A program made the translations under genes and the position numbers. A stretch of 54,175 nt of DNA from Gluconacetobacter dulcium (GTDB lineage: Bacteria; Pseudomonadota; Alphaproteobacteria; Acetobacterales; Acetobacteraceae). How positions within the stretch are numbered: the stretch's first letter is position 1; each line of letters begins with the position of its first letter. The stretch is from positions 1 to 54,175 of the forward strand of contig NZ_JABEQN010000028.1 of assembly GCF_014174165.1 (NCBI RefSeq), read 5' to 3'. The notes beneath the pieces were generated by a model. That model was not told the origin of the DNA. It did no database searches and was given only the letters and a program-made list of their open reading frames with translations. Positions 14,556-48,354 of this stretch are shown here, one piece after another.

Positions 14556-16652
14556 ATGACGATGCAGGAGAATGGTGCGGTGGCCGCGCAGACGATGCGC
14601 GATATCGCGGCCGTGGTGCCCATCCTGCCGGAAACGGCCGTTGGCGGGGATGTCATGCAGTATTTCGAGCGTGATCCCGACCTGCTGTATATTGTGATCG
14701 TCGATCACGGCGGACGCGCGCTGGGGCTTGTCGACCGTCACACTTTTCATGTGCGGATGGCCGGCCAGTATGGATATTCGGTCTATCATCGGCGCCCGGT
14801 CACGCTGCTGATGGATCCGCGCCCGACCATCGTGGAGGCTGACGTGCTGGTGGCGGACTTTCTACCGCAGGCACTGGGGGCGAACGCCTCGGAACTGCTG
14901 CTGGGCTTCATTGTGGTCGAACGCGGGATATGCCTGGGGGTAGGGTCGGCTATTGATCTGGTTCGTCACGCGCATGCCGCCAAACAGACGGCGCTCTCCG
15001 AACTGCGCATGGCGACGGACAGGCTGCATGTGGCGAATGAGAAGATCCTGCGTGACAAGCTGTTCATCGACCGGATCGTCCAGAATGTGCCGTCGCCGCT
15101 GATCGTCCGGTCGGTTGTGGACGGGGACGTCATTCTGATGAACCGCGCGGCAAAGCGGTTCGAGGACTTCGCCCTGTCTGAAAAGATGATTGGTATGGCA
15201 TCCTGCATGACGGATGGGGTGCCGGCGGATGACGGGCAGGCGACCATGGAGTGTTCCCTGGACGACCCACAGGGAAACCGGCGGGACCTGATCATCAATC
15301 GCCTGCTGATCGCTGATCAGTCGGGGACGCCGTTATGGGATCTGTATGTTTTTGATGACGTGACGGTTTATCGGGATAACGAGCGGCAGATCGAGCGGCT
15401 GGCTCATTATGACAAGGTGACCGACCTGTGCAATCGCCGGCTGTTCAGCGTGCAACTGGAGGCGTTGTGCGGCGAAAACAGGCAGGGCGTTCTATTCTAT
15501 ATCGACCTTGATTATTTCAAGACCGTAAATGATGTCCATGGTCATGCAGCGGGAGACGCCCTGCTGCGCCTGGTGGCCGGCCGTCTGCGTGAGCACAGCC
15601 GGCCCGGCGACCTGATTGCCCGTCTTGGTGGGGATGAATTCGCCATTCTGTGGCCCAATACCGCCTCGCCGTTGGAAATCGACGGGCGGATGACGCCGCT
15701 CCTGGCGTCGCTGAGCGCGCCCTATCAGGTGGATGGCAAGCGGATTGTGATCGGGGCCAGTATCGGGTCTGCCCGTTTTCCCGAAGATGCCGACAGTGCG
15801 GAGACCCTACTGCAGCATGCGGACATGGCGATGTATCGCGCTAAGGCCCAGGGGCGGAACCGCTTCGCCCAGTTCCAGGCCGCGTTGAGCGAAGAGGTGA
15901 GAAGTGCCGCGATCCTGACCGGGGAGTTGCGCGATGCGCTGGCGACCGATGCCCTGACCGTGCATTTCCAGCCGATCTACGATCGCACGGGCCGCCAGGT
16001 GACGAGTTGCGAGGCCCTGGTACGCTGGCGGCATCCGGTGCATGGGCTGATCATGCCGGACCAGTTCATTGCGCTGGCCGAGCAGAACGGGTTGATCCAC
16101 ACGCTGGGGCAGTGGGTTCTACAGGCCGCGTGCCGTGAGGCGGTAGCCTGGCCTGCTGGCGTGAGGGTGGCGGTGAACGTGTCGCCAATCCAACTCGGCG
16201 ATGCGGCCTTTCCCGACATGGTGTTGAGAATCTTGCAGCAGACCGGCCTGCCGGCGCATCGGCTGGAAATCGAGATTACCGAAACATCTTTCCTGAAAAA
16301 TGAAAAATCGAATCAGGCCGCGCTGCGCAGGCTGGTCGAGATTGGTTGCCGACTGGTACTGGACGATTTTGGGACTGGCTATTCCTCGTTGAAATATCTC
16401 TGGTCCTTTCCGTTCAGCAAGATCAAGATCGATTGCGGATTTGTCCAGGCGATGTCGCAGGACAAGGTTCTCAGGATCACGCAGACCATTCTCAGCCTCG
16501 CCCATTCTCTGGAACTGTGTGTCACGGCTGAAGGGGTGGAAACGGACGAACAGCATAGGCTTCTCGCCGGGATGGGCTGCGATGAGGTCCAGGGCTATCT
16601 GTTCGGGCGGCCCCGGCCGGTGGAAGAGCTTTTATCCTGTCTGGGTGCCTGA
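14556..16652 (+). CDS. GGDEF-EAL protein with CBS-like and PAS sensory domains
   Basis: A 698-residue cytoplasmic cyclic di-GMP enzyme. Residues about 15-150 look like a degenerate CBS pair (VMQYFERDPDLLYIVIVDHG, LGLVDRHTFHVRMA), followed by a short coiled coil and a PAS domain (about 170-270). The GGDEF domain has an intact signature at 358-362 and an I-site RPGD at 349-352. The EAL domain has EAL at 486-488, NVSPIQ, EITET, DDFGTGYSS from 603, and EGVE, so phosphodiesterase residues look complete. It could be bifunctional, or a phosphodiesterase tuned by GTP. The upstream 250 bp are AT-rich and likely hold the promoter; no partner gene is obvious. Confidence 0.9.
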   Translation: MTMQENGAVAAQTMRDIAAVVPILPETAVGGDVMQYFERDPDLLYIVIVDHGGRALGLVDRHTFHVRMAGQYGYSVYHRRPVTLLMDPRPTIVEADVLVADFLPQALGANASELLLGFIVVERGICLGVGSAIDLVRHAHAAKQTALSELRMATDRLHVANEKILRDKLFIDRIVQNVPSPLIVRSVVDGDVILMNRAAKRFEDFALSEKMIGMASCMTDGVPADDGQATMECSLDDPQGNRRDLIINRLLIADQSGTPLWDLYVFDDVTVYRDNERQIERLAHYDKVTDLCNRRLFSVQLEALCGENRQGVLFYIDLDYFKTVNDVHGHAAGDALLRLVAGRLREHSRPGDLIARLGGDEFAILWPNTASPLEIDGRMTPLLASLSAPYQVDGKRIVIGASIGSARFPEDADSAETLLQHADMAMYRAKAQGRNRFAQFQAALSEEVRSAAILTGELRDALATDALTVHFQPIYDRTGRQVTSCEALVRWRHPVHGLIMPDQFIALAEQNGLIHTLGQWVLQAACREAVAWPAGVRVAVNVSPIQLGDAAFPDMVLRILQQTGLPAHRLEIEITETSFLKNEKSNQAALRRLVEIGCRLVLDDFGTGYSSLKYLWSFPFSKIKIDCGFVQAMSQDKVLRITQTILSLAHSLELCVTAEGVETDEQHRLLAGMGCDEVQGYLFGRPRPVEELLSCLGA

Positions 16653-16759
16653 TCGGCATGCGGAGTCGGTGAGGAGGAACGGGGCGGGATCGCGCCTGGG
16701 GCCGTCGTTTTTCTGGTGGAAATTTCTTTTATGATTCAAGTGCATTAGCGCGCGATTTT

Positions 16760-16779
16760 GCATCATATTCTGATGATGC
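16760..16779. promoter_or_regulatory. inverted repeat before the PhyH-like gene
   Basis: GCATCAT-ATTCTG-ATGATGC is a perfect 7-bp inverted repeat in the AT-rich gap between the GGDEF-EAL gene and the dioxygenase-like gene. It may be an operator or a small hairpin; there is no U-tract to make it a terminator. Confidence 0.3.
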
Positions 16780-16861
16780 TATTGCATCTTGCGTGGTGCA
16801 GCGAGACTGCAACTTCAGGAGACGGGGAGCGTTCCTTCGCCGTTATGGCCGACCGGATATT

Positions 16862-17986
16862 ATGCATAAGATCATCAAGACTGTTCTGACCTATCCCGTG
16901 TGGGTATTTCAGCTTTTCACCGGCACGAAATCCTTTCGCGATAATCCCTTGATCGGTAGCCGCCGGCTGAATGAGACGGGCCTTCACGTGGTGCGCCAGA
17001 GCCTGGCCCATCGGGCTGCTGCCTGGCGGCGGCGGCGGCTGAGGCGCGGAATTCCTCCGCATCTGCTCGCCGAGTTCGATCGCGACGGGTTTGTCGTTAT
17101 TCGCGATTTCCTGCCGGCGGAGACGTTCAGGCAGATTCTGGAGGATGTCCGGCAGTATCGCGGGGAAGCGCGTGAGACCATTCAGGGCGATACGGTGACG
17201 CGTCGCATCGCGCTGGAGCCCTGTGTCCTGACCCGCATGCCCGGCGTGCGGCGGTTGCTGGACCTGCCGCTTCTGGGGCGGCTGATCCGACTGGCCGGCA
17301 GCCGGGATTGTGAGCCGCTTTATTATGTCCAGACGATTCTGCCCCATGCCGTTACCGGCGACCCAGATCCGCAGCTTCAGTTTCATGCCGATACGTTCCA
17401 CCCTACCGTCAAGGCGTGGTTCACCCTGACCGAGACGGCGGATGAGAGTGGCCCCTTTGTGTACGTTCCCGGATCGCACCGGCTGAACCCGGCGCGGCAG
17501 GCCTGGGAAAAGCGGATGAGCCTGGAGGCGGCGGGTTCCGGCGATCGTCTGAGCGGGCGGGGATCTTTCCGTGTCGACGCGGAAGCGATCGCTGCGATGG
17601 GCTACGCGGCCCCGCGCGCCGTGGCCGTGCCCGCCAATACGCTGATCGTCGCCGACACCGGCGGCTTTCATGCGCGCGGTGTCAGCGCGGAGCCCGGTAT
17701 CCGGGTGGAGATCTGGGCGTATGAACGGGGCAATCCCTTCTTTGCGCCCTTGATTGATCTGTGGCGCATCCGGGCGATCGGGCGGCGCCGGGCATCCGTG
17801 ATGTGGGCGTTCCATGACTGGCTGGAGGAAAGTGGGTTCGGGGTACATGTCTGGCGGAAGCGCGGCAATGTCGGCGCTTTCGACCGCGACGTGGGAGGGC
17901 ATGAGATGCTGCATATTGCCCCCGGCGCGCCGGGTTGGTTCGGACAGGTGAGTGCGCATATGCTCCGGCGGCTCGTGCGCCGGTAG
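16862..17986 (+). CDS. phytanoyl-CoA dioxygenase (PhyH)-family protein
   Basis: Probable Fe(II)/2-oxoglutarate-dependent oxygenase that hydroxylates an unknown substrate. From the ATG at 16862 it has 374 residues. [20 protein letters not shown] opens the PhyH domain; the iron-binding HxD is H175-A-D177 in QFHADTFHP, the distal His is H270 in GGFHARGV, and R281 in GIRVEIW would hold 2-oxoglutarate. All metal ligands are thus present. An upstream GTG at 16793 in the same frame would add 23 residues of poor quality, so I prefer the ATG although its ribosome site is weak. The following DUF1348 gene is 70 bp away in the same direction. Confidence 0.85.
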
Positions 17987-39222: not shown

Positions 39223-40647
39223 GTGAGACGAATGTCCCGCTGTCTGTGGCTGGCGACTCTGGCGCTGGGTGTGGGGTTGGCCGGGGGGTGCACCCGAAAG
39301 GACAGCGCCGCGCCGCCGTCGCGGGTGGTGGTGCCGGCGCGCTTTGCCGAGGCGCCGGCGGGGGGCGGGGCGCCTGCTGACCTCGCCCGCTGGTGGACGC
39401 AATGGCGTGATCCGGTGCTGGACCGGCTGGTCGAGGGAGCTTTGGCGGCCAACCTGGATCTGGCCGTGGCGCGGGAGCATGTGCGGCAGGCCGGGGCCTA
39501 TGTGGCGGTGGCGCGTTCCGCGCTTTATCCCACCGTGGAGGCGACCGGGAACATCGCGGGGGGCGGGCTGGGCTGGAGCAATCCGGCCGTGCCGGCGGTG
39601 CTGGCCCCCAATCTGGGCGATCCGGCGACGGATGGGCATCTGGCCGGGTTGGCGGCGGCGTGGGAGCCGGATCTCTTCGGCGGCCGGCATGCCGACCTGC
39701 GCGCGGTGCGGGCGGTTGCGCAGTCGGTGGAGGAGCAGCTTCATGGCACCCGCATGCTGGTCGCGGCGGATGTGGTGGAGAGCTATGTCGGGGCGGTGGA
39801 CGACCGGCGGCGGGTGGCGCTGATCGACCGTTCGGCGACGGTGCTGGACCGCATGGAGACCTATGCCGCCGCGCGGATGGCGGCGGGGCAGGCGACGCGG
39901 GCGGATCTCGATGCCGTGCGGGCGCGGCGGCGGGCGTTGCTGGCGACCCGGCCGATGCTGGTGGCGGACATGGATACGCGGCGGCGGCGGATCGCCGTGC
40001 TGTCGGGCCTGCCGCCTGAGCAGGCGCCGGCCATCCCGGAACCGGCGGCATTCGTGATTCCGCCGGCGCCGGCCGGGATCGTGCCCGTGGCGGTGATGGA
40101 GCGGCGGCCCGATATCCTGGCCCGGCGCGATCTGGTCGCCGCCGCGCTGGAGCGGTTGCGCAGTGCGCGGACCGATCTGCTGCCGCGTTTCGGGCTGGAA
40201 TTCTTCGGGGGTAACGGGCGGCTGCGCTTCGACGGGTTGCCCGGCCTGTCGGGGAGTGGCGGGTTGATGGCGTTGACGGCCTATCTGCCGATCTTCACCG
40301 CCGGGCGTATCCAGGCGCAGATTCAGGGCGCCGATGCGCGGCTGGACGAGGCCGTGACGCTGTATGACCAGGCGCTGCTGACGGCGCTGTCCGAGGTGGA
40401 GACGGCGTATGAAAGCCGTGCCGCGCTGGACGGGCAGGGGCAGGGGCTCGCCGCCGCGCTGGCGACGGCGCAGCGTGAGGCGCGGGACCGGATGGGGCTG
40501 TTCGATGGCGGGCAGGGAGTGCTGCTCGACGCGCTTCAGGCGCGGCTGAATGCCATTGCGGTGGAGGATGCGCTGGTGCGCTCGGAAGACGGGCGGGCGC
40601 TGGCGACGGTCAGGCTGGCGATGGCGCTGGGGGGTGGGGTGCCTTGA
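39223..40647 (+). CDS. outer-membrane efflux lipoprotein, NodT family, of the ABC exporter
   Basis: Outer-membrane channel of the HlyD/RbbA/YhhJ exporter, which would make the system a complete tripartite pump; E. coli lacks this gene in its yhiI-rbbA-yhhJ cluster. The GTG at 39223 has AGGAG 7 bp upstream and gives 474 residues; ATG 39232 is an alternative. The signal ends in LGVGLAGGC, a lipobox. LARWWTQWRDPVLDRLVEGA and VMERRPDILARRDLVAAALE are family hallmarks. About 460 bp of non-coding DNA follow before the restriction-modification genes. Confidence 0.9.
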   Translation: MRRMSRCLWLATLALGVGLAGGCTRKDSAAPPSRVVVPARFAEAPAGGGAPADLARWWTQWRDPVLDRLVEGALAANLDLAVAREHVRQAGAYVAVARSALYPTVEATGNIAGGGLGWSNPAVPAVLAPNLGDPATDGHLAGLAAAWEPDLFGGRHADLRAVRAVAQSVEEQLHGTRMLVAADVVESYVGAVDDRRRVALIDRSATVLDRMETYAAARMAAGQATRADLDAVRARRRALLATRPMLVADMDTRRRRIAVLSGLPPEQAPAIPEPAAFVIPPAPAGIVPVAVMERRPDILARRDLVAAALERLRSARTDLLPRFGLEFFGGNGRLRFDGLPGLSGSGGLMALTAYLPIFTAGRIQAQIQGADARLDEAVTLYDQALLTALSEVETAYESRAALDGQGQGLAAALATAQREARDRMGLFDGGQGVLLDALQARLNAIAVEDALVRSEDGRALATVRLAMALGGGVP

Positions 40648-41120
40648 CGGCGGTGTTGTTGCATAGGCGCGAAGGTGGGGATTTTTACTGCATTTCGGAG
40701 GCTTCTGTTGTCTGGCAGCCATTCGCTTGCGTGCCGTTTGGCGCGCCGGGAATGCAGTATCAGGGATCCTGAGTTAGCGCTTATGGGCCTGATCTCTGCC
40801 TTATGCCCGGAAGGGGTGTGGTCGTCCCTGTTGCTGCTGTTTGTGGAGGCGGCTTTCAGCATCCTGGGGAGGTCGGTTTTTTTTTTGGAAACCGGAATGG
40901 CGGCTTTGGGGCGAGTACCTGAGGTGAGCGGCCATTCGTTGGCACCACGCCTGAGTCGGCTGATATCAAAATGGCCTTTGGGGCCGCGTCGGGTAGGTCA
41001 TGGGAAGGCGGTGCAAGTTGGTCGCCTACCCTGCCTCCGCGAACGTTTCGTCGTGGCGTCCATCGAAACTAAACGGGAACAAACTTGCCTTCGTCGCAGT
41101 GGTGTTGCATGTTTCAGCGT
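40648..41120. other. non-coding stretch at the left edge of the defence island
   Basis: No gene is supported in this 470-bp gap. It contains a run of ten T (40877-40886) inside a CGGTTT/AAACCG inverted repeat (40874-40894), which could end transcription coming from the left. Two related phrases occur, CAGCCATTCGCTTGCG near 40722 and GCGGCCATTCGTTGGC near 40929. Base composition falls towards the right, marking the change to the island. No integrase gene or attachment site is visible. Confidence 0.5.
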
Positions 41121-42173
41121 ATGAAAGCACTCGACTTATTTTCTGGACCGGGCGGATTGTCGCTTGGAATGAAGCGCGCCGGAATAGAACCCGTTGCATG
41201 CGTCGAGAAAAGCAAGGACGCGGTGGCTACGTATGACGCGCACACGCCGGACGCTGAACACTACCGCTCTGACATTCGTAGCATATCATTCGAACGCTAT
41301 CGCGGGAATGTGGACGTAGTTTTCGGTGGCCCACCATGCCAACCGTTTTCGACAGGCGGCTTGCGTAAAGGTACCGCCGATGCTCGTAACATGTTTCCCG
41401 AATTTATGCGAGTGCTGAAGGAGGTCCGCCCCGCCGCGTTCTTGGCCGAAAACGTGCCGGGCCTGGCAACGCGCAACCGGGTTCAATATCTTGGTGAATT
41501 GTTGAGCGAATTTGAGACGCTAGGCTTCAATGTATCGTGGAACGTAGTCTCGGCCGCGGACTATGGCGTTCCGCAAAAGCGGCGGCGTCTCATCATTGTG
41601 GGCATGAAGAAGGGCACGTTTTGGTTTCCGAAGCCAACGCATGGACCGGATGCTCACATTCCGCACGTCGCGTCGGGTAGCGTGATCGACAAGGCATCGC
41701 CGCTTGGCGAACCGCCCGATTGCCCGGTCGTGTATGCGAAATATCCTGATCCGCGCCGAAGCCCCTACGCCGGTCACGTTTATAACGGCGGAGGTCGTCC
41801 CATCGACCTATCGACGCCGTGCCATACGCTGTTGGCTTCGGCGGGCGGTTACAAGACGCATTGGATCGATACGATGGACATTGCGCCCGAGTATTCGGCG
41901 CACTTGATGGCAGGCGGTGCGCCTCGCGATGGCGCTGTTCCCGGTGCGCGCCGAATGACGTTGGAAGAATCGGCGCTAATTCAAACTTTCCCCGCCGACA
42001 TGTGGTTCGCCGGTTCGCGGTCGTCCCAATACACGCAAGTTGGCGACGCTGTTCCGCCAATGCTTGGTCACGCCCTTGGCGTCGCACTTCGTCGCCAGCT
42101 TGAAGGCGCAACGATTTGCCCGATGACGCACTATCAGTCAGAAGCTTCATTGCCATTGTTGATGACAGCGTAA
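41121..42173 (+). CDS. DNA (cytosine-5-)-methyltransferase of a type II restriction-modification system
   Basis: Transfers a methyl group from S-adenosylmethionine to C5 of cytosine in a target site. The 350-residue protein starting at MKALDLFSGPGGLSLGM has all core motifs: I (DLFSGPGG), IV with catalytic C73 (GGPPCQPFS), VI (ENV at 110-112), VIII (QKRRRLIIVG from 152) and X (QVGDAVPPMLGHALG). An in-frame ATG at 41109 is an alternative start; neither has a clear ribosome site. The variable region before motif IX is short to medium, fitting a monospecific enzyme. Codon use is less GC-rich than in the flanking efflux genes. The stop TAA overlaps the next start (TAATG). The recognition sequence is unknown. 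Confidence 0.94.
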   Translation: MKALDLFSGPGGLSLGMKRAGIEPVACVEKSKDAVATYDAHTPDAEHYRSDIRSISFERYRGNVDVVFGGPPCQPFSTGGLRKGTADARNMFPEFMRVLKEVRPAAFLAENVPGLATRNRVQYLGELLSEFETLGFNVSWNVVSAADYGVPQKRRRLIIVGMKKGTFWFPKPTHGPDAHIPHVASGSVIDKASPLGEPPDCPVVYAKYPDPRRSPYAGHVYNGGGRPIDLSTPCHTLLASAGGYKTHWIDTMDIAPEYSAHLMAGGAPRDGAVPGARRMTLEESALIQTFPADMWFAGSRSSQYTQVGDAVPPMLGHALGVALRRQLEGATICPMTHYQSEASLPLLMTA

Positions 42174-43240
42174 TGTCTCGCAATTTGTTGGTCGAATACG
42201 CGGTAGACGTGGCGCTTGAACGGCTGGATGCTTTCATTGAAGGCGAGAAGCTGACGGCGTTGCCCAACGCTGCGGCCCGCGCTGCAATGGACGGCCAGCT
42301 TGGCGACGGTTCGAACAGCGTCCGGTTGGCGTCGCTGTTCTTCGTCTTCTATGCGACGGTTGATACGGCGTGGGATTGCAATTCGATCCCGACTGGCATT
42401 CGCGGCATTTACGGCGACAAGCGGTTGGCGACGCAATTGGGGCTTCGCAGCATCACGCTTCACAACGCTGTTACAGCGTTCGGCGAAAACCTTGGGTGGA
42501 AGGGTAACGTCGCCAATTCCCGCCTTCAAAACGACGTGCGGTTCGACGGCTTCGCCCGCGCGATTGCTGGTATGAACCCCGAACAGCGGGCGCTATGCGC
42601 CGACTACATGGCCGCACGGTTCGCCGAAAGCCGGAAGGTCATTGCGCCATTACCGCCAGTTGCAGACGACGTGTTGACCTATGCCCGTGCGCGGAAGCTA
42701 TTTTATTTGCTGATTGCCATTCCGTCCGAAGGCAACGTTCAGCAATTCCTTGTCGCTGCGCTGCTGTTCGTCCATCGGCAACGCCACGGCTATGACATTC
42801 GAACACACCACGTTCATGCATCCGACCGCTTCGACGCGACGGCTGGCGATATTGAGGAAATGTTGAACGGCGACCTTGTGCGCGCCTACGAAGTTACGGT
42901 CCGCCCTGATTGGAAGAACCGTGTCGGCGACTTCCGTAAGAAGATGGACGGTGCGAGCCTGCGCAAATACACCATCATTGCGTCGAACGTGAATAGCGAC
43001 GACGACCTTGCCGAACCCGCCGATATGATACGCTTCCTTGCGCCGTATGGTCGCGACATTGCGGTCGTGGACATTCACGATTTCGTCAACGTCTTCGCGA
43101 TGGAACTGAACGCCGACGAACTGCGCCGCGCGGTCACGCAAACCTACAGCTATCTAACGACGCCAAGCTTGTGCGGACGCGCCGATATTATTGATAAGTT
43201 CAACGCTGCGGTCGAAGGTTGGTTGGACGAAGCCACCTAA
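42173..43240 (+). CDS. putative type II restriction endonuclease (SacI-like)
   Basis: The gene starts at the ATG overlapping the methyltransferase stop (TAATG), so the two are coupled, as restriction partners often are. The 355-residue protein has no easy full-length match in my memory, but its layout resembles the SacI endonuclease family (SacI 357 residues): RSITLHNAVTAFGENLGWKG in the middle and, later, a possible PD-(D/E)xK core in SDRFDATAGDIEE (D226) and YEVTVRPDWKNRV (E240-x-T242). The catalytic Lys would be replaced by Thr, with K248 nearby. Low GC like its partner. The endonuclease role rests mainly on context; a non-nuclease function cannot be excluded. Confidence 0.65.
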   Translation: MSRNLLVEYAVDVALERLDAFIEGEKLTALPNAAARAAMDGQLGDGSNSVRLASLFFVFYATVDTAWDCNSIPTGIRGIYGDKRLATQLGLRSITLHNAVTAFGENLGWKGNVANSRLQNDVRFDGFARAIAGMNPEQRALCADYMAARFAESRKVIAPLPPVADDVLTYARARKLFYLLIAIPSEGNVQQFLVAALLFVHRQRHGYDIRTHHVHASDRFDATAGDIEEMLNGDLVRAYEVTVRPDWKNRVGDFRKKMDGASLRKYTIIASNVNSDDDLAEPADMIRFLAPYGRDIAVVDIHDFVNVFAMELNADELRRAVTQTYSYLTTPSLCGRADIIDKFNAAVEGWLDEAT

Positions 43241-43774
43241 AACCTACCCATGCTCTGCCGAATGCTACGCCGGAAATAATATCGAAAATCACGACGTTGA
43301 TTTCGTTATAGATTAGATGCTTATCTGCCCGCGTCCCACGGCCTCAATGGGAGTGCGGTCGGTAGTTATATGGCAACTGCGCTACGAATGTCGCCGGTGA
43401 GTGGTACTTCGGTTTGCGGCCCGTCTTCGTTCGTAGCGTTATATCTGAACCACCGTCCGCTTTCGGACCGCAGAAAGGATGGCATGAATGACCTGTTGAA
43501 AGCGGATGCGGCCTGCTAGCTCAAGATTGCCTGGCAGACAAGCCGCTTTGGCGAGTTTCCTGCCGGTCAGAATTCGGGCCGCGTCAGCCATAAGAGGCAT
43601 AAATCCGAATCGACTGCTTCCGATCAATTATGGTCGTTTCAAGTCTGGATTTGCATACCCTGATACCGAAGATTATGGTGACTATACGTCATGCTTGCCT
43701 TTCAATAAAGGCTAAAGGTATTTTAGATGTATATAATCCATGCCAAGCCGATGACGTGGTAACGAGGGGGCGCG
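43241..43774. other. non-coding spacer inside the defence island
   Basis: About 530 bp of AT-richer DNA without a gene I can support. A 62-codon minus-strand frame (43439-43627, containing SSRFGFMPLMADAARILTGR) looks somewhat protein-like but matches nothing I know and may be a remnant. The last 100 bp, with TATTTTAGATGTATATAATC, are a likely promoter region for the ATPase gene. Confidence 0.4.
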
Positions 43775-46018
43775 TTGATTGAAGAAATAAAAATCGCCGG
43801 ATGCGCCAGCTATAGCGTCGAGGGACAGAGGCTTACCGAGCTTCGAAAAATCAATTTTATCTACGGCGCGAACGGCTCAGGCAAGACCAGCATCTCGCGC
43901 GTAATCGCGGCTCCGGCAGATCATCCGGCGTGTACGATCCGTTGGGCCAATGAACGGCCTCTTGAATGCCTCGTCTACAACACCGATTTCGTGGAGCGGA
44001 ATTTCCGGTCTAACCTGCCCGGCATTTTTACGCTGGGCGAGCATGATGCAGCCGTGCTGGACCAGATCGACCAGGCGCGAAGGAAGATTGCGGAGATTGA
44101 GCGCGATATCAGCGCGCGTAACATCGTACTTCATGGAGATGATGGCGCGAGCGGTAAACTCGGGGACCGTTCGGTACTGCACGAGAATATCGTGAACGAA
44201 TGTTGGAAGCTGAAGAGCCGCTATGACGCCGATTTCCACTCCGCCTTCACGGGCTTACGCGGCTCCAGGGCGCGCTTCTGTGACGCAATCCTAAGTCAGT
44301 GGGCGTCCAATCGGGCGACGCTTCATCCGCTCGAGGACTTGAAGAAGCGTGCTGCCGTCATTTTCGAAAAGGGACTTGCACGGGAGAGCGTGATTCGTGT
44401 GCCCGATAGTGTCGAGTTAACCCGGCTGGAGGCGTTGCCAATCCTCGTGAAAAAAGTCGTTGGTCAGGGTGATGTCGATATCGCCGGTCTGATCGATCGT
44501 CTTGGCAACAGTGACTGGGTGAAGCAGGGCATCAGCTATTTCGTAAAGAGCGCGCCCCAATGTCCATTCTGTCAGCAGGATGTCGACGCCGATCTCGCGA
44601 AGCGCATCGGCGATTATTTCGACGATGTCTATGATCGCGACATTGCGGATATCGCGTGTCTCGTTACAGGGTACGAGGCAGCGAGCGTAGCCTACCTCCA
44701 GGCGCTCAATGAGATATCGCAGACCAGCTCACGCTACATTGAGGCTGATCAACTGGCTGACCTTGTCGAACGTGTGACCGCGCGGCTTGCCCTCAATCAG
44801 CAGCATATCGCACGAAAGCAGAAAGAGCCGAGTGCCGTCGTCACGGTGGAGGACAACACTGACCTGTTCGCGGAAGTGCGGGCTTTTCTCATGGCCGCCA
44901 ATGCGGCAATCAATGAACATAACCGAGCCGTCGATGATATAGGCAATCAGAAGACGCTGCTCACTAGAGAAATCTGGAAGTATCTACTGGAAGAGGCCAA
45001 GAGTGTTCTCAATAACTACCATTCCAGCAAGACGGCGGTAGATGCAGCGATCAACGGCATCGAAGCGAGCCTGATAACCAAGCGCCGCGACCTCGCAACC
45101 ATGCGGCAAACGTTGCGTGATCTTGAGAAGGGTATCACGAGCGTTAAGCCCACCGTGACCGAGATCAATGCACTGCTGGCCTCATTCGGTTTTCGCGGTT
45201 TCAAGCTCGCCACAGCGGGCGATCAGGGCAACCTATATGAGATCGTCCGTCTTGACGGCAGCAACGCCGTTAGGAGTCTGAGCGAAGGCGAGAAGACTTT
45301 CGTTACCTTCCTTTATTTCTACCATCTGATCCGCGGCAGCGTTTCGGAATCCGGAATGACGAGCAATCGGGTCATTGTGTTCGACGACCCTATTTCGAGC
45401 CTCGACAGCGATATTCTGTTCATCGTCTCCAGCTTGATCAAGCGTGTGTTCGAGTTGAGTCGTGCACAGAACAGCATGATTCGGCAGGTGTTCGTGCTCA
45501 CCCACAACATTTATTTCCACAAAGAGGTGTCGTTCGATCCCGAGCGGAAGAGAGAGCGCCGCGCGCACGAGACCTTCTGGATCGTCAAGAAGATCGATGA
45601 TATCTCGACGCTGGAATCCTTCGATCATAACCCAATCAAGACATCCTATGAGTTACTCTGGTCCGAGGTGCGCAACGAGAACCGTTCCAACCTCACCATC
45701 CAGAACACACTGCGCCGCATTCTGGAGAACTATTTCAAAATCCTTGGCAACATGGACAAAGACAAGATTATCGAGAAATTCGATGGCCGTGAGAAGGTAA
45801 TCTGCGCATCGCTTTTTTCGTGGGTGAACGACGGCTCGCACAGCACGCATGACGATCTATACGTCTCCACGGATGTTGCCACAGTGGACGCCTATCTCGG
45901 CGTCTTTAAACGTATTTTCGAAGAGACCGGGCACATGCAGCATTATCACATGATGATGGGTACGGAACCTGTGCCCACGGCATCTCCAGTCATGAACAGC
46001 GGGCAAGATGCAGCATGA
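43775..46018 (+). CDS. RloC/PrrC-like AAA/ABC ATPase, predicted tRNA anticodon nuclease
   Basis: A 747-residue protein of the AAA_13 (COG4694) family, whose members RloC and PrrC cut tRNA anticodon loops when a linked DNA restriction system is disturbed. The ATPase parts are Walker A GANGSGKT (31-38), signature LSEGE (502-506), Walker B VIVFDDP (533-539) and the switch His H577 in VLTHN. Coiled coils flank CPFC (C263/C266), a zinc-hook CxxC as in RloC. The C-terminus has LRRILENYFKILG (R647-x3-E651) and NDGSHSTHDD (H689), matching the R-x3-E...H nuclease triad in order, with a slightly longer spacing than in PrrC. Start TTG 43775 follows GAGGGGG. It lies 535 bp after the restriction pair. Confidence 0.8.
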   Translation: MIEEIKIAGCASYSVEGQRLTELRKINFIYGANGSGKTSISRVIAAPADHPACTIRWANERPLECLVYNTDFVERNFRSNLPGIFTLGEHDAAVLDQIDQARRKIAEIERDISARNIVLHGDDGASGKLGDRSVLHENIVNECWKLKSRYDADFHSAFTGLRGSRARFCDAILSQWASNRATLHPLEDLKKRAAVIFEKGLARESVIRVPDSVELTRLEALPILVKKVVGQGDVDIAGLIDRLGNSDWVKQGISYFVKSAPQCPFCQQDVDADLAKRIGDYFDDVYDRDIADIACLVTGYEAASVAYLQALNEISQTSSRYIEADQLADLVERVTARLALNQQHIARKQKEPSAVVTVEDNTDLFAEVRAFLMAANAAINEHNRAVDDIGNQKTLLTREIWKYLLEEAKSVLNNYHSSKTAVDAAINGIEASLITKRRDLATMRQTLRDLEKGITSVKPTVTEINALLASFGFRGFKLATAGDQGNLYEIVRLDGSNAVRSLSEGEKTFVTFLYFYHLIRGSVSESGMTSNRVIVFDDPISSLDSDILFIVSSLIKRVFELSRAQNSMIRQVFVLTHNIYFHKEVSFDPERKRERRAHETFWIVKKIDDISTLESFDHNPIKTSYELLWSEVRNENRSNLTIQNTLRRILENYFKILGNMDKDKIIEKFDGREKVICASLFSWVNDGSHSTHDDLYVSTDVATVDAYLGVFKRIFEETGHMQHYHMMMGTEPVPTASPVMNSGQDAA

Positions 46019-46203
46019 TCATTATATCAGATTGAGTGTATCTGGCTGACGCTATTGCTTCTTTGCGCCTCGAACCCGATACGTTGCAAGTATCGTTTCG
46101 AATTTTGTCGATCGAAGTAAGCCTGAAAAATATCCGCTTTCGGGACGCTGCCACAACTGTCTCGATGGCAGAGATGAGAACGAAAACCGATCAAGGTTCT
46201 GTT

Positions 46204-46509
46204 TCAGAAACCAGTTAGAAGTAGATCAAGCGCCTGGGTGATCTCATCCTGATAAATAGACAATGAAGTCACGATTGTTTTAGGTCACGGACAGGTACAG
46301 CAGCCATAAACTGCGTTCATCATAACGAACGAATGGTCGTCGACTACAAAAACAGGATTTAGTCTCTTTGCCGGTTTTGGTGCCACTTCCTGTGATAAAA
46401 GTGGCACCACCATGCGGGTGCCCAACTCGTCCAGCAGGTCTGCCTGTACATCCAGAACGAAACGCACTTCATCTCGTCCGGCCAGACAATACACGTCAAA
46501 ACGGGCCAT
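46204..46509 (-). pseudogene. ccdB: CcdB toxin, inactivated by two small indels
   Basis: CcdB poisons DNA gyrase. The first 60 or so codons are intact: FDVYCLAGRDEVRFVLDVQA, then DLLDELGTRMVVPLL and LNPVFVVDDHSFVMM. An extra A near 46315 shifts the frame and leads to a stop at 46285; the true continuation MAAVPVRDLK lies one frame over, and a missing A near 46275 restores the original frame for VTSLSIYQDEITQALDLLLT and the stop at 46204. The two changes compensate in phase but leave a premature stop, so no full toxin is made. Sequencing error in the A runs cannot be ruled out. Confidence 0.82.
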
Positions 46510-46733
46510 TCAGAAGTTCCGGTAGTCTGCGAGAGGAAGACCGTTTTCTTCGACATACTGTCGGGATGCTTCAAGGGATGATCGGTTTTCTGCGAGCCAT
46601 TGTTGAGCGCGGATCGACGCGATCGCAGACTTCAACCCCTGTTCGCAGGCCTGCGATATGTTGAGATCAAGCGATTTGGCTTCCTCGAGTAACTGAATTC
46701 TTCTTGCCGGGGCTTGAGGATATGAGTACGCAT
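46510..46733 (-). pseudogene. ccdA: CcdA antitoxin, N-terminally damaged
   Basis: Antitoxin partner of CcdB. The C-terminal toxin-neutralising part is well preserved, AQQWLAENRSSLEASRQYVE followed by ENGLPLADYRNF, and the TGA stop is directly followed by the ccdB ATG. The helix region LLEEAKSLDLNISQACEQGL is also clear. The start MRTHILKPR at 46733 lies in another frame, and the stretch that should form the DNA-binding ribbon is shortened, so a deletion with frameshift near 46690-46700 is likely. Autoregulation of the pair would be lost. Confidence 0.72.
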
Positions 46734-46887
46734 CGCGCGTAAGCCGCTCGCCGCGTCGTTGCGTTTATTTTGCCGCGTCCGGGGGCGTGGCGCGGCCCCC
46801 GCGGCGTGATCCGCATTGCGCGGCGACCGTCGGTGGCACCCTGTCCATCGACGAACGGCGCGGCCGGAGCCGGTGGGGCCGCAGGGC

Positions 46888-48354
46888 TTACAGGATATGG
46901 CCGGCGGCGGATGCGGTCGGGCGCGGCGGCGTCGTGCCGGCCCAGCCGCCGCCGAGGGTCTTGTAGAGGGTCACGCTGTTTTCCATGGTCTGGAGTTGGG
47001 TCGTGATGCCGGCGAGGCGGGCCGTGTAGAGGTCGCGCTGGGCCACCAGGGTGGTCAGGTACGGGTCGTAGCCGGCGCGGAAGCGGGCGAGAGCCAAATG
47101 GTATTGCCGGTCGTTGGCGGCGATCAGGGCGTCCTGCGCGCGGCGCTGCTTCAGGTAGGTGTCGCGGCCGGCCAGGGCGTCGGCGACTTCGCGGAAGGCG
47201 GTCTGGATCGTTTTTTCGTAGCGGGCGATTTCTTCTTTCTTGCGCGCCTTCGCGACGCGGAGCTGTGCCGTCAGGCGGCCGGCGTCGAAAAGCGGTACGG
47301 TGATCTGGGGGGCGACGTTCCAGGCGCCCATGCCGCTCTGGAACAGGCGGGTGATGTTGTTGCTGGCGGTGCCGTTCGCCGCCGTGATCTGGATCTTGGG
47401 GAAGAACTCGGCGCGGGCGGCGCCGATATCGTCGTTCGCCGCGCGCAGCACGTCTTCAGCCGACAGGATGTCGGGGCGGCGGGCGATCATGTCCGATGGC
47501 AGGCCGGCTGGAACGTTGGGGAAAGCCGTGACGGCGTCGAGGGATGTGAGAGTCTGCAAGCTCCGCGTCGTGGCGTCGTCCAGCGGGGTGCCGACCAGCA
47601 GCGTCAGTTGGTCCAGGGCCTGGGCGCGTTGGCGGGTATAGATTTGCAGGCTGGTTTCGGCATCGTGCAGGGCGGATTCGGCCTGGGCCACGTCCAGCGC
47701 CGTGACCGTGCCCGTGTGGGCCGCCTGCTGGACCAGGTTGTAGGTGTGCTGGCGGCTGTCGAGCACCTGCTGGGTGACCAGGACGGCCTGGTTGTCCGCG
47801 ACCCAGGTCAGCATGCCCGATGCCACGGCGGCGATCAGGCTCAACTGCATGTTCTCGCGGTTCAGCGCGTCGGCCATATAGCGGTCGAACGCGGCCTGCG
47901 AGGCGCTGCGGATGCGCCCCCACAGATCGACCTCATAGGCAGAAACGCCGAACCCCACGGCGTACTGACGCATGTAGAACGGGCCGTTGGTCTCCGACAG
48001 GCTCCAGATCCTGGCATATTCCTTCTGGACATTCGCCAGCGCACCGCCATTCAGGGTGGGGAACAGCGCGGCATTTTCGATGTCGAACTGGGCGCTGGCG
48101 GCTTCGACCTGATGCTGGGCGATCCGCAGGTCGCGGTTGTTCGCCAGCGCCAGTTCGACCAGATGGCGCATGACCGGATCGCGGTAGAAGCGCCGCCAGT
48201 CGGGCAGGTCGGTGCGGTCGGTGGCCTCGTTGCCCGTGGGCCACGCCGTTGCGACGGCGGGGGCGGGACGGTGCCAGGCCGGGATCATGGTGCAGCCGGA
48301 CAGCAGCAGGGCGAAGCCGGCGGCCAGTGGCGCGAAGGGTCTGATGGGCCGCAC
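46888..48354 (-). CDS. outer-membrane efflux lipoprotein, OprM/NodT family, of the second RND pump
   Basis: Outer-membrane channel of 488 residues. The signal LAAGFALLLSGC ends in a lipobox Cys at 21. DWRRFYRDPVMRHLVELALA, AYEVDLWGRIRSASQAAFDR, MIARRPDILSAEDVLRAAND and APQITVPLFDAGRLTAQLRV are characteristic. It starts with GTG two bases after the stop of the membrane fusion gene, with AAAGGGAG inside that gene as ribosome site. It is the last gene of the minus-strand operon. I see no clear hairpin terminator in the 150 bp beyond its stop, before the ccdA remnant. Confidence 0.93.
   Translation of the reverse strand: MRPIRPFAPLAAGFALLLSGCTMIPAWHRPAPAVATAWPTGNEATDRTDLPDWRRFYRDPVMRHLVELALANNRDLRIAQHQVEAASAQFDIENAALFPTLNGGALANVQKEYARIWSLSETNGPFYMRQYAVGFGVSAYEVDLWGRIRSASQAAFDRYMADALNRENMQLSLIAAVASGMLTWVADNQAVLVTQQVLDSRQHTYNLVQQAAHTGTVTALDVAQAESALHDAETSLQIYTRQRAQALDQLTLLVGTPLDDATTRSLQTLTSLDAVTAFPNVPAGLPSDMIARRPDILSAEDVLRAANDDIGAARAEFFPKIQITAANGTASNNITRLFQSGMGAWNVAPQITVPLFDAGRLTAQLRVAKARKKEEIARYEKTIQTAFREVADALAGRDTYLKQRRAQDALIAANDRQYHLALARFRAGYDPYLTTLVAQRDLYTARLAGITTQLQTMENSVTLYKTLGGGWAGTTPPRPTASAAGHIL

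Follow-up and report, generated by a model that had tools for sequence, protein, structure and literature searches.

The 54,175-nucleotide stretch of Gluconacetobacter dulcium DNA analysed here (contig NZ_JABEQN010000028.1, positions 1 to 54,175), referred to below as the window, contains an RloC-family gene at 43775-46018 on the + strand, directly following a type II restriction-modification (R-M) pair. The 747-residue product carries the sequence features by which RloC has been defined. We consider it probable that this protein is an autonomous anticodon nuclease triggered by DNA ends, in which a Rad50-like ATP-binding cassette (ABC) ATPase, a zinc-hook coiled coil and a C-terminal nuclease are combined, and that the type II pair is independent of it. 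The pairing joins two separately mobile modules. Profiles, motifs and gene order confirmed the overall observation of a first-pass annotation of this DNA, which had placed an RloC-like gene beside a type II pair.

Sequence features of the RloC-family protein

The RloC open reading frame (ORF) was matched by the Pfam family AAA_13 over residues 10-716 (profile positions 2-713 of 713, 608 bits, E-value of 4.5e-182), and no other protein of the genome assembly matched AAA_13 at E<=0.001. Additionally, the PADLOC candidate model PDC-S06 matched the full length of the protein with 935 bits, and the PADLOC PrrC model matched residues 502-725 with 48 bits. The ATPase motifs comprised Walker A (GANGSGKT), the signature (LSEGE), Walker B with the D-loop (FDDPISSLD) and the His switch (LTHN). 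The zinc-hook motif C263-P-F-C266 is encoded at 44561-44572, the first two putative triad residues, R647-x3-E651, at 45713-45727, and the third, H689, together with the preceding S688, at 45836-45841, all on the + strand; 37 residues separate E651 from H689.

To follow these positions among relatives, 552 stretches that matched the search patterns were collected; 441 contained a gene for a relative, and the 80 best of these were retained. Together with seven plasmid homologues and the window they gave 88 sequences, and 86 were aligned after two broken ORFs had been excluded. R647, S688, H689 and C266 were found in all 86 sequences, as were S503-E506, D537, P539, S541, S542, D544 and T576-N578, while E651, C263, L502 and D538 were each found in 85. 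The least conserved of the tested positions were L575 (74/86), G34 (79/86), D686 (80/86) and L543 (82/86), and 75 of the 747 window positions were invariant across the alignment. When the C-terminal 160 residues were shuffled, the bare R-x3-E...SH pattern still appeared in 3.6% of cases and thus proves little by itself, so that conservation carries the claim. The hook cysteines, the complete ABC motifs and the R647/E651/H689 triad that had been annotated on an AAA_13 ATPase were all found at the positions given and were near-invariant. The gene begins with TTG, preceded by a GAGGGGG box; the TTG start and the GGGGG box (43764-43777) were kept in the window and four aligned relatives, and GTG or TTG occupied the aligned start in 22 of 87 homologues, the two broken ones included.

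RloC has been defined as a protein of 658-897 residues, in which a CxxC hook lies in a coiled-coil insert that splits the ABC ATPase, with a triad of the form Arg-x3-Glu-x36-52-His and often Ser before the His (PMC2610378). The window protein falls within this size range with 747 residues, has every one of the ABC motifs, carries C263/C266 in an ATPase-splitting insert, with long predicted helices before and after the hook, and shows the spacing R-x3-E-x37-H with S688. Its domain content, motifs, spacing and near-invariance all agree with the RloC-like identity proposed for it earlier.

The AlphaFold2 model of the protein had a mean predicted local distance difference test score (pLDDT) of 80 and a predicted template modelling score of 0.49. 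Long helices were predicted before the hook (residues 92-120 and 128-150) and after it (284-316, 324-350, 362-407 and 409-454), and the hook block itself (261-270) had a pLDDT of 63. R647 and E651 were located on one predicted helix (642-657), and S688-H689 in a low-confidence loop (684-698). No solved structure gave a profile match at E<=0.01, and the best single-sequence matches to solved structures were weak, with E-values of 0.043 and 0.33.

We also compared the protein with PrrC. Within the phylum, the PADLOC model of PrrC gave matches in 40 of 249 genomes; 12 of these matches were strong, and ten of the 12 supplied the comparison set. R-x3-E was present in all ten PrrC proteins and SH in nine, the tenth having PH. 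When the C-terminal domains were aligned as profiles, R647/E651 coincided with the R-x3-E of PrrC and S688-H689 with the SH, in a match that was not significant (hhalign E-value of 0.042, probability 1.3%), and the comparison of whole-protein profiles aligned the ATPase motifs and not the nuclease part. PrrC and RloC have been listed as catalytic HEPN proteins (PMC3710099); no Arg was found 5-7 positions before H689, where the HEPN motif R-x4-6-H would place it. Membership in PrrC itself was rejected, as the window protein has 747 residues with a hook and lies beside a type II system, in contrast to the 341-416 residues, the absence of a hook and the type Ic hsd genes of PrrC.

The type II pair and the exchange of partners among RloC homologues

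The C5-cytosine DNA methyltransferase gene (41121-42173, + strand) has an ATG start and encodes PCQ and ENV motifs; its product matched PF00145 with 213 bits and the PADLOC model MTase_II PDLC03307 with 424 bits. The gene for the 355-residue type II restriction endonuclease (42173-43240, + strand) starts with an ATG that overlaps the methyltransferase stop, and its product matched REase_II PDLC03410 of PADLOC with 753 bits. The overlap reads TAATG (42171-42175), so that the two genes look translationally coupled, in agreement with the coupled pair of type II layout that had been annotated. RloC was indeed found just downstream of this pair, as the annotation had it, at a measured distance of 534 bp rather than the 535 bp given there. 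The endonuclease matched no Pfam or NCBIfam family at E-values up to 0.1. Pfam includes a SacI model, and the earlier label 'SacI-like' was therefore dropped, no SacI family being among the Pfam and NCBIfam matches at E<=0.1. A weak relative of the endonuclease (G091) showed 31% identity over residues 160-272, with a D...EVT core that was common to the three aligned proteins and that we do not claim as a catalytic motif.

DNA comparisons showed separate joins for the two modules. The block that contains RloC (43549-46178) corresponds to positions 14769-17415 of the Acetobacter ascendens plasmid pAP1447-1 (L017), with 83% DNA identity by blastn. It includes a 226-bp leader (43549-43774, + strand) common to both, from which RloC may be transcribed on its own. 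In pAP1447-1 this block begins 12 bp past the hsdR stop (14756), after a complete type I operon. The R-M block (41163-43259), on the other hand, matches a Sphingomonas parapaucimobilis plasmid at 86% DNA identity; the methyltransferase is 93.8% identical to its homologue there over 336 residues and the endonuclease 90.1%. RloC was not detected anywhere on this 197-kb plasmid record, in a search made without a positive control. About 290 bp between the two blocks belong to neither. Part of hsdR left behind in the gap at 43.2-43.8 kb would have shown that a type I operon had been replaced, but tblastn with 18 reference proteins revealed no such remnant; the sole match at E <0.1 was the C-terminus of the endonuclease itself. 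The pairing looks like an assembly of interchangeable parts of a defence island.

A survey for co-occurrence of RloC with this particular endonuclease, as the annotation had proposed, revealed no conserved subsystem. The endonuclease was present in 2 of 299 genomes of the family (its own and one weak match), in 1 of 385 genomes of the class (its own), in none of the 10 genomes of homologue loci (searched without a positive control) and in 1 of 72,556 plasmid records, on a plasmid without detectable RloC. A conserved combination of RloC with this endonuclease was rejected on account of this rarity and of that plasmid.

The exchange of partners was also evident in a FastTree phylogeny of 87 RloC sequences. 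The window protein belongs to a fully supported clade of six, with the pAP1447-1 gene and those from Qipengyuania (L025), Novosphingobium (L026), Altericroceibacterium (L027) and the window's family group (L105). The Qipengyuania gene adjoins a divergent set of Vsr, C5-methyltransferase and Eco29kI-like genes, the Novosphingobium gene a JAB/ThiF/PIN region, and L105 an AbiV gene and a solitary HSDR_N protein. No C5, HsdM, HsdR or HsdS match was found by local profiles in L026, L027 and L105, where L027 covers 0.56 kb upstream and 10 kb downstream and other or more distant systems are possible. Within this clade, RloC is thus accompanied by type I genes, by either of two distinct C5 type II systems or by nothing recognised as a complete system. 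As the relatives that exchange partners in this way share at least 82% identity with the protein of the window, they offer a natural experiment on whether any R-M partner is needed.

Similar variety was found across the other homologues. RloC lies beside C5-methyltransferase, Vsr and EcoRII-like genes in L034, beside a gene annotated as PaeR7I in L020 and beside a type IIG-like protein in L080. In L043, L044, L055, L065 and L086 it lies between HsdM/HsdS and HsdR matches; L055 gave no match to HsdS, and the match to HsdR was weak in L043. The type I label was loosely clustered on the tree, and the C5 label required two changes. Orientation and distance relative to the C5 system varied, the genes being on the same strand in the window and divergent in L025 and L034. 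The type II neighbour that the annotation had pointed out is therefore real and not unique, as other RloC homologues adjoin other type II systems.

Neighbour frequencies were determined in 47 genome loci whose flanks extend for 5 kb or more in each direction, the window excluded. A C5-methyltransferase was found within 5 kb of RloC in 2 of the 47 (expected 0.14, Poisson P 0.009) and HsdM in 5 (expected 0.31, Poisson P 1.9e-5), and by these profiles 40 loci had neither. Observed neighbours were taken from local profiles and expected values from Pfam gene counts at genome-average density; the counts omit L080, L029 (a C5 gene 7.4 kb away, with the downstream flank cut) and one C5 row under the cut-off. 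The control consisted of 54 strong N6 methyltransferases from the same genomes, and not one of them lay within 5 kb of a C5 enzyme, which is too few to separate from 2/47; this set comprised the N6 rows of at least 130 bits and left out three tandem neighbours and second fragments of several C5 genes. Because defence genes cluster, enrichment near RloC is no proof of coupling. For comparison, a 2008 survey linked 8 of 73 RloC genes to type I or III R-M genes and 10 of 73 to DNA metabolism genes (PMC2610378).

Other neighbours of the RloC homologues were also observed. In 5 of the 47 loci, genes for an Mre11/SbcD-like phosphoesterase and a Rad50/SbcC-like ATPase come after the RloC homologue and share its strand (L054:10001-16076; L058:10001-16272; L059:10001-16207; L093:10001-16844; L053:10001-16719). 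Four of these were checked with Pfam and lay on scattered branches of the tree, and L053, in which RloC is split, was identified by local profiles. SbcCD-like genes occur near RloC in L019, L020 and L029 as well. Among the titles retrieved in our literature search, none concerned an anticodon nuclease coupled to Mre11. DUF2130 was among the commonest neighbours (7 of 187 neighbour proteins scanned), and on an Erythrobacteraceae plasmid the RloC homologue is directly followed by a DUF3223 protein (L022:12241-13005) that matched PADLOC HamC2 with 292 bits.

Proposed mechanism and alternative explanations

By analogy with the two RloC proteins that have been tested, the ATPase and hook part would detect the ends of linear DNA or double-strand breaks, ATP would be hydrolysed and the C-terminal nuclease released. 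The freed nuclease would then cut tRNA anticodons, and translation would stop in the damaged or infected cell. The RloC gene, which has its own leader, a weak TTG start and its own switch, would be regulated independently and would travel as a cassette, inserting next to a variety of defence genes. Its C5 type II neighbours would form an independent first-line system that was acquired separately and shares a defence or cargo site with RloC, with no fixed complex between them. Linear DNA activates the Geobacillus kaustophilus protein, GkaRloC, and DNA breaks activate the Acinetobacter baylyi protein, AbaRloC, without R-M genes, in hsd mutants (PMC3874168). Mutations of the triad abolish GkaRloC activity (PMC2610378), mutations of the hook raise RloC activity (PMC2610378, PMC3874168), and according to a 2025 review, RloC is triggered by DNA breaks (PMC12707154).

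Several points weigh against an autonomous, DNA-end-triggered nuclease. The assignment to RloC was made through the published sequence definition. H689 lies in a loop with a pLDDT <50, and the C-terminal domain alone had no significant profile match to PrrC (hhalign values above). R-M genes occur near the RloC family more often than expected from genome-average density, which leaves room for functional coupling. Additionally, the authors of PMC3874168 allow for control by R-M in the course of infection, and a 2025 paper has RloC triggered by neutralised type I R-M (PMC12322248).

In a guard arrangement, the type II pair would keep the nuclease inactive, and phage inhibition of the pair would release it. 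HsdM was found near RloC at 5/47 loci against 0.31 expected, but the partner varies among close relatives, three of the six clade members show no complete R-M system (among them L105 with its solitary HSDR_N protein and L027 with 0.56 kb of upstream sequence), and the same endonuclease occurs on a plasmid without detectable RloC. Type II enzymes, moreover, mostly act singly and offer no HsdR/M complex for docking. Although PrrC with EcoprrI provides a precedent (PMC2610378, PMC3506569) and PMC12322248 applies the guard logic to RloC with type I, AbaRloC was activated in hsd mutants (PMC3874168). We regard this arrangement as very unlikely here. In particular, RloC is unlikely to be silenced through a dedicated contact with this type II pair, because partners exchange and the endonuclease occurs on the plasmid without detectable RloC, and the earlier proposal that the protein comes into play once the restriction system fails or is antagonised found no support for this pair for the same reasons. 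A role in second-line defence is plausible.

An alternative is a relay, in which cuts by the type II endonuclease on unmodified DNA activate RloC, so that restriction or loss of the methyltransferase leads to translation shut-off. C5 type II genes recur beside RloC at 2/47 loci besides the window (expected 0.14, P 0.009), and RloC homologues also adjoin other end-handling genes of the SbcD/SbcC-like type. However, the enrichment is relative to genome-average density, in genomes where defence genes cluster anyway and with a control (0/54) that is inseparable from 2/47, and neither distance nor orientation is conserved. We consider the relay unlikely, and it is compatible with a self-governed RloC. 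It has a more general form, to which we likewise assign a low probability, in which RloC is a partner-agnostic second effector with DNA ends as its input, attachable to any cutter and triggered by a type II cut or by methylation loss. If this were true, a simple R-M pair would become a relay that cuts and then stops translation, and the RloC-Mre11-like-Rad50-like operons in other phyla would work likewise, an end processor taking the place of the cutter. It is quite unlikely, finally, that the gene encodes a toxic nuclease which has this fold but acts on another RNA, or a sensor without nuclease activity. Such a protein would fit with the absence of a solved-structure match and of a significant C-terminal PrrC match, whereas the triad is near-invariant in 86 sequences with the spacing and Ser-His of RloC, and triad mutations abolish GkaRloC activity (PMC2610378).

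An autonomous, DNA-end-triggered nuclease thus remains our preferred explanation. The nuclease as a back-up of restriction is already in print (PMC3506569). In the titles and text passages covered by our literature search, a pairing of RloC with a type II system was not reported, and we regard the type II linkage, beyond the type I and III count of 2008, as a modest novelty. If RloC works beside a type II pair, docking to a type I complex cannot be what ties it to restriction, and the pairing allows the clean question of whether a type II cut switches on tRNA cleavage.

Genomic setting and comparison with known systems

The RloC gene (54%) and the R-M pair (58%) have a lower guanine-plus-cytosine (GC) content than the flanks (68%). 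They lie in a low-GC insert of about 6.2 kb at 40639-46888 (no strand assigned), between two efflux genes. The left flank was searched against 14 genomes of the genus, including its own; five others gave strong matches, one of which ended at the site, and in four congeners (L150-L153) the same efflux-gene site held different cargo of 1.1, 5.8, 7.7 and 3.1 kb. The site between the two efflux genes is a variable insertion site. At the island edges we found no long repeats and no clean empty site, only short or imperfect repeats (among 20/25 direct-repeat families), and promoter and terminator scans performed no better than on shuffles. On the opposite strand, 270 bp past RloC, lie CcdB-like and CcdA-like toxin-antitoxin genes (46288-46764, - strand). 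The CcdB-like gene matched PF01845 with 63 bits over profile positions 1-67 of 101 and is short at its end, and the CcdA-like gene matched PF07362 with 72 bits. Such a pair is a plasmid-type module, which is consistent with a plasmid origin of the insert.

One close counterpart is the pAP1447-1 homologue, which was 83% identical at the DNA level, leader included, and which, in contrast to the window, follows a complete type I hsd operon where the window has the type II pair. The full-length match to PDC-S06 relates the protein to a candidate label from Payne et al. 2021 that is called unpublished in PMC11811056, and the literature naming PDC-S06, as far as covered, gave no mechanism for it. 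PrrC with EcoprrI is similar in having an ATPase, a C-terminal R...E...H nuclease region and R-M genes nearby; it differs in its size of 341-416 residues, in the lack of a hook insert and in its type Ic linkage (PMC2610378). Also close in architecture is RloC from Geobacillus kaustophilus and Acinetobacter baylyi (Davidov and Kaufmann 2008, Klaiman et al. 2013). The window differs from the 2008 table, which counted linkage for type I and III only, in its type II neighbour, and the protein resembles RloC in its size, in its ABC motifs, in a non-ATG start as in part of the family, in the CxxC hook among long helices and in the R-x3-E-x37-H pattern with Ser before His.

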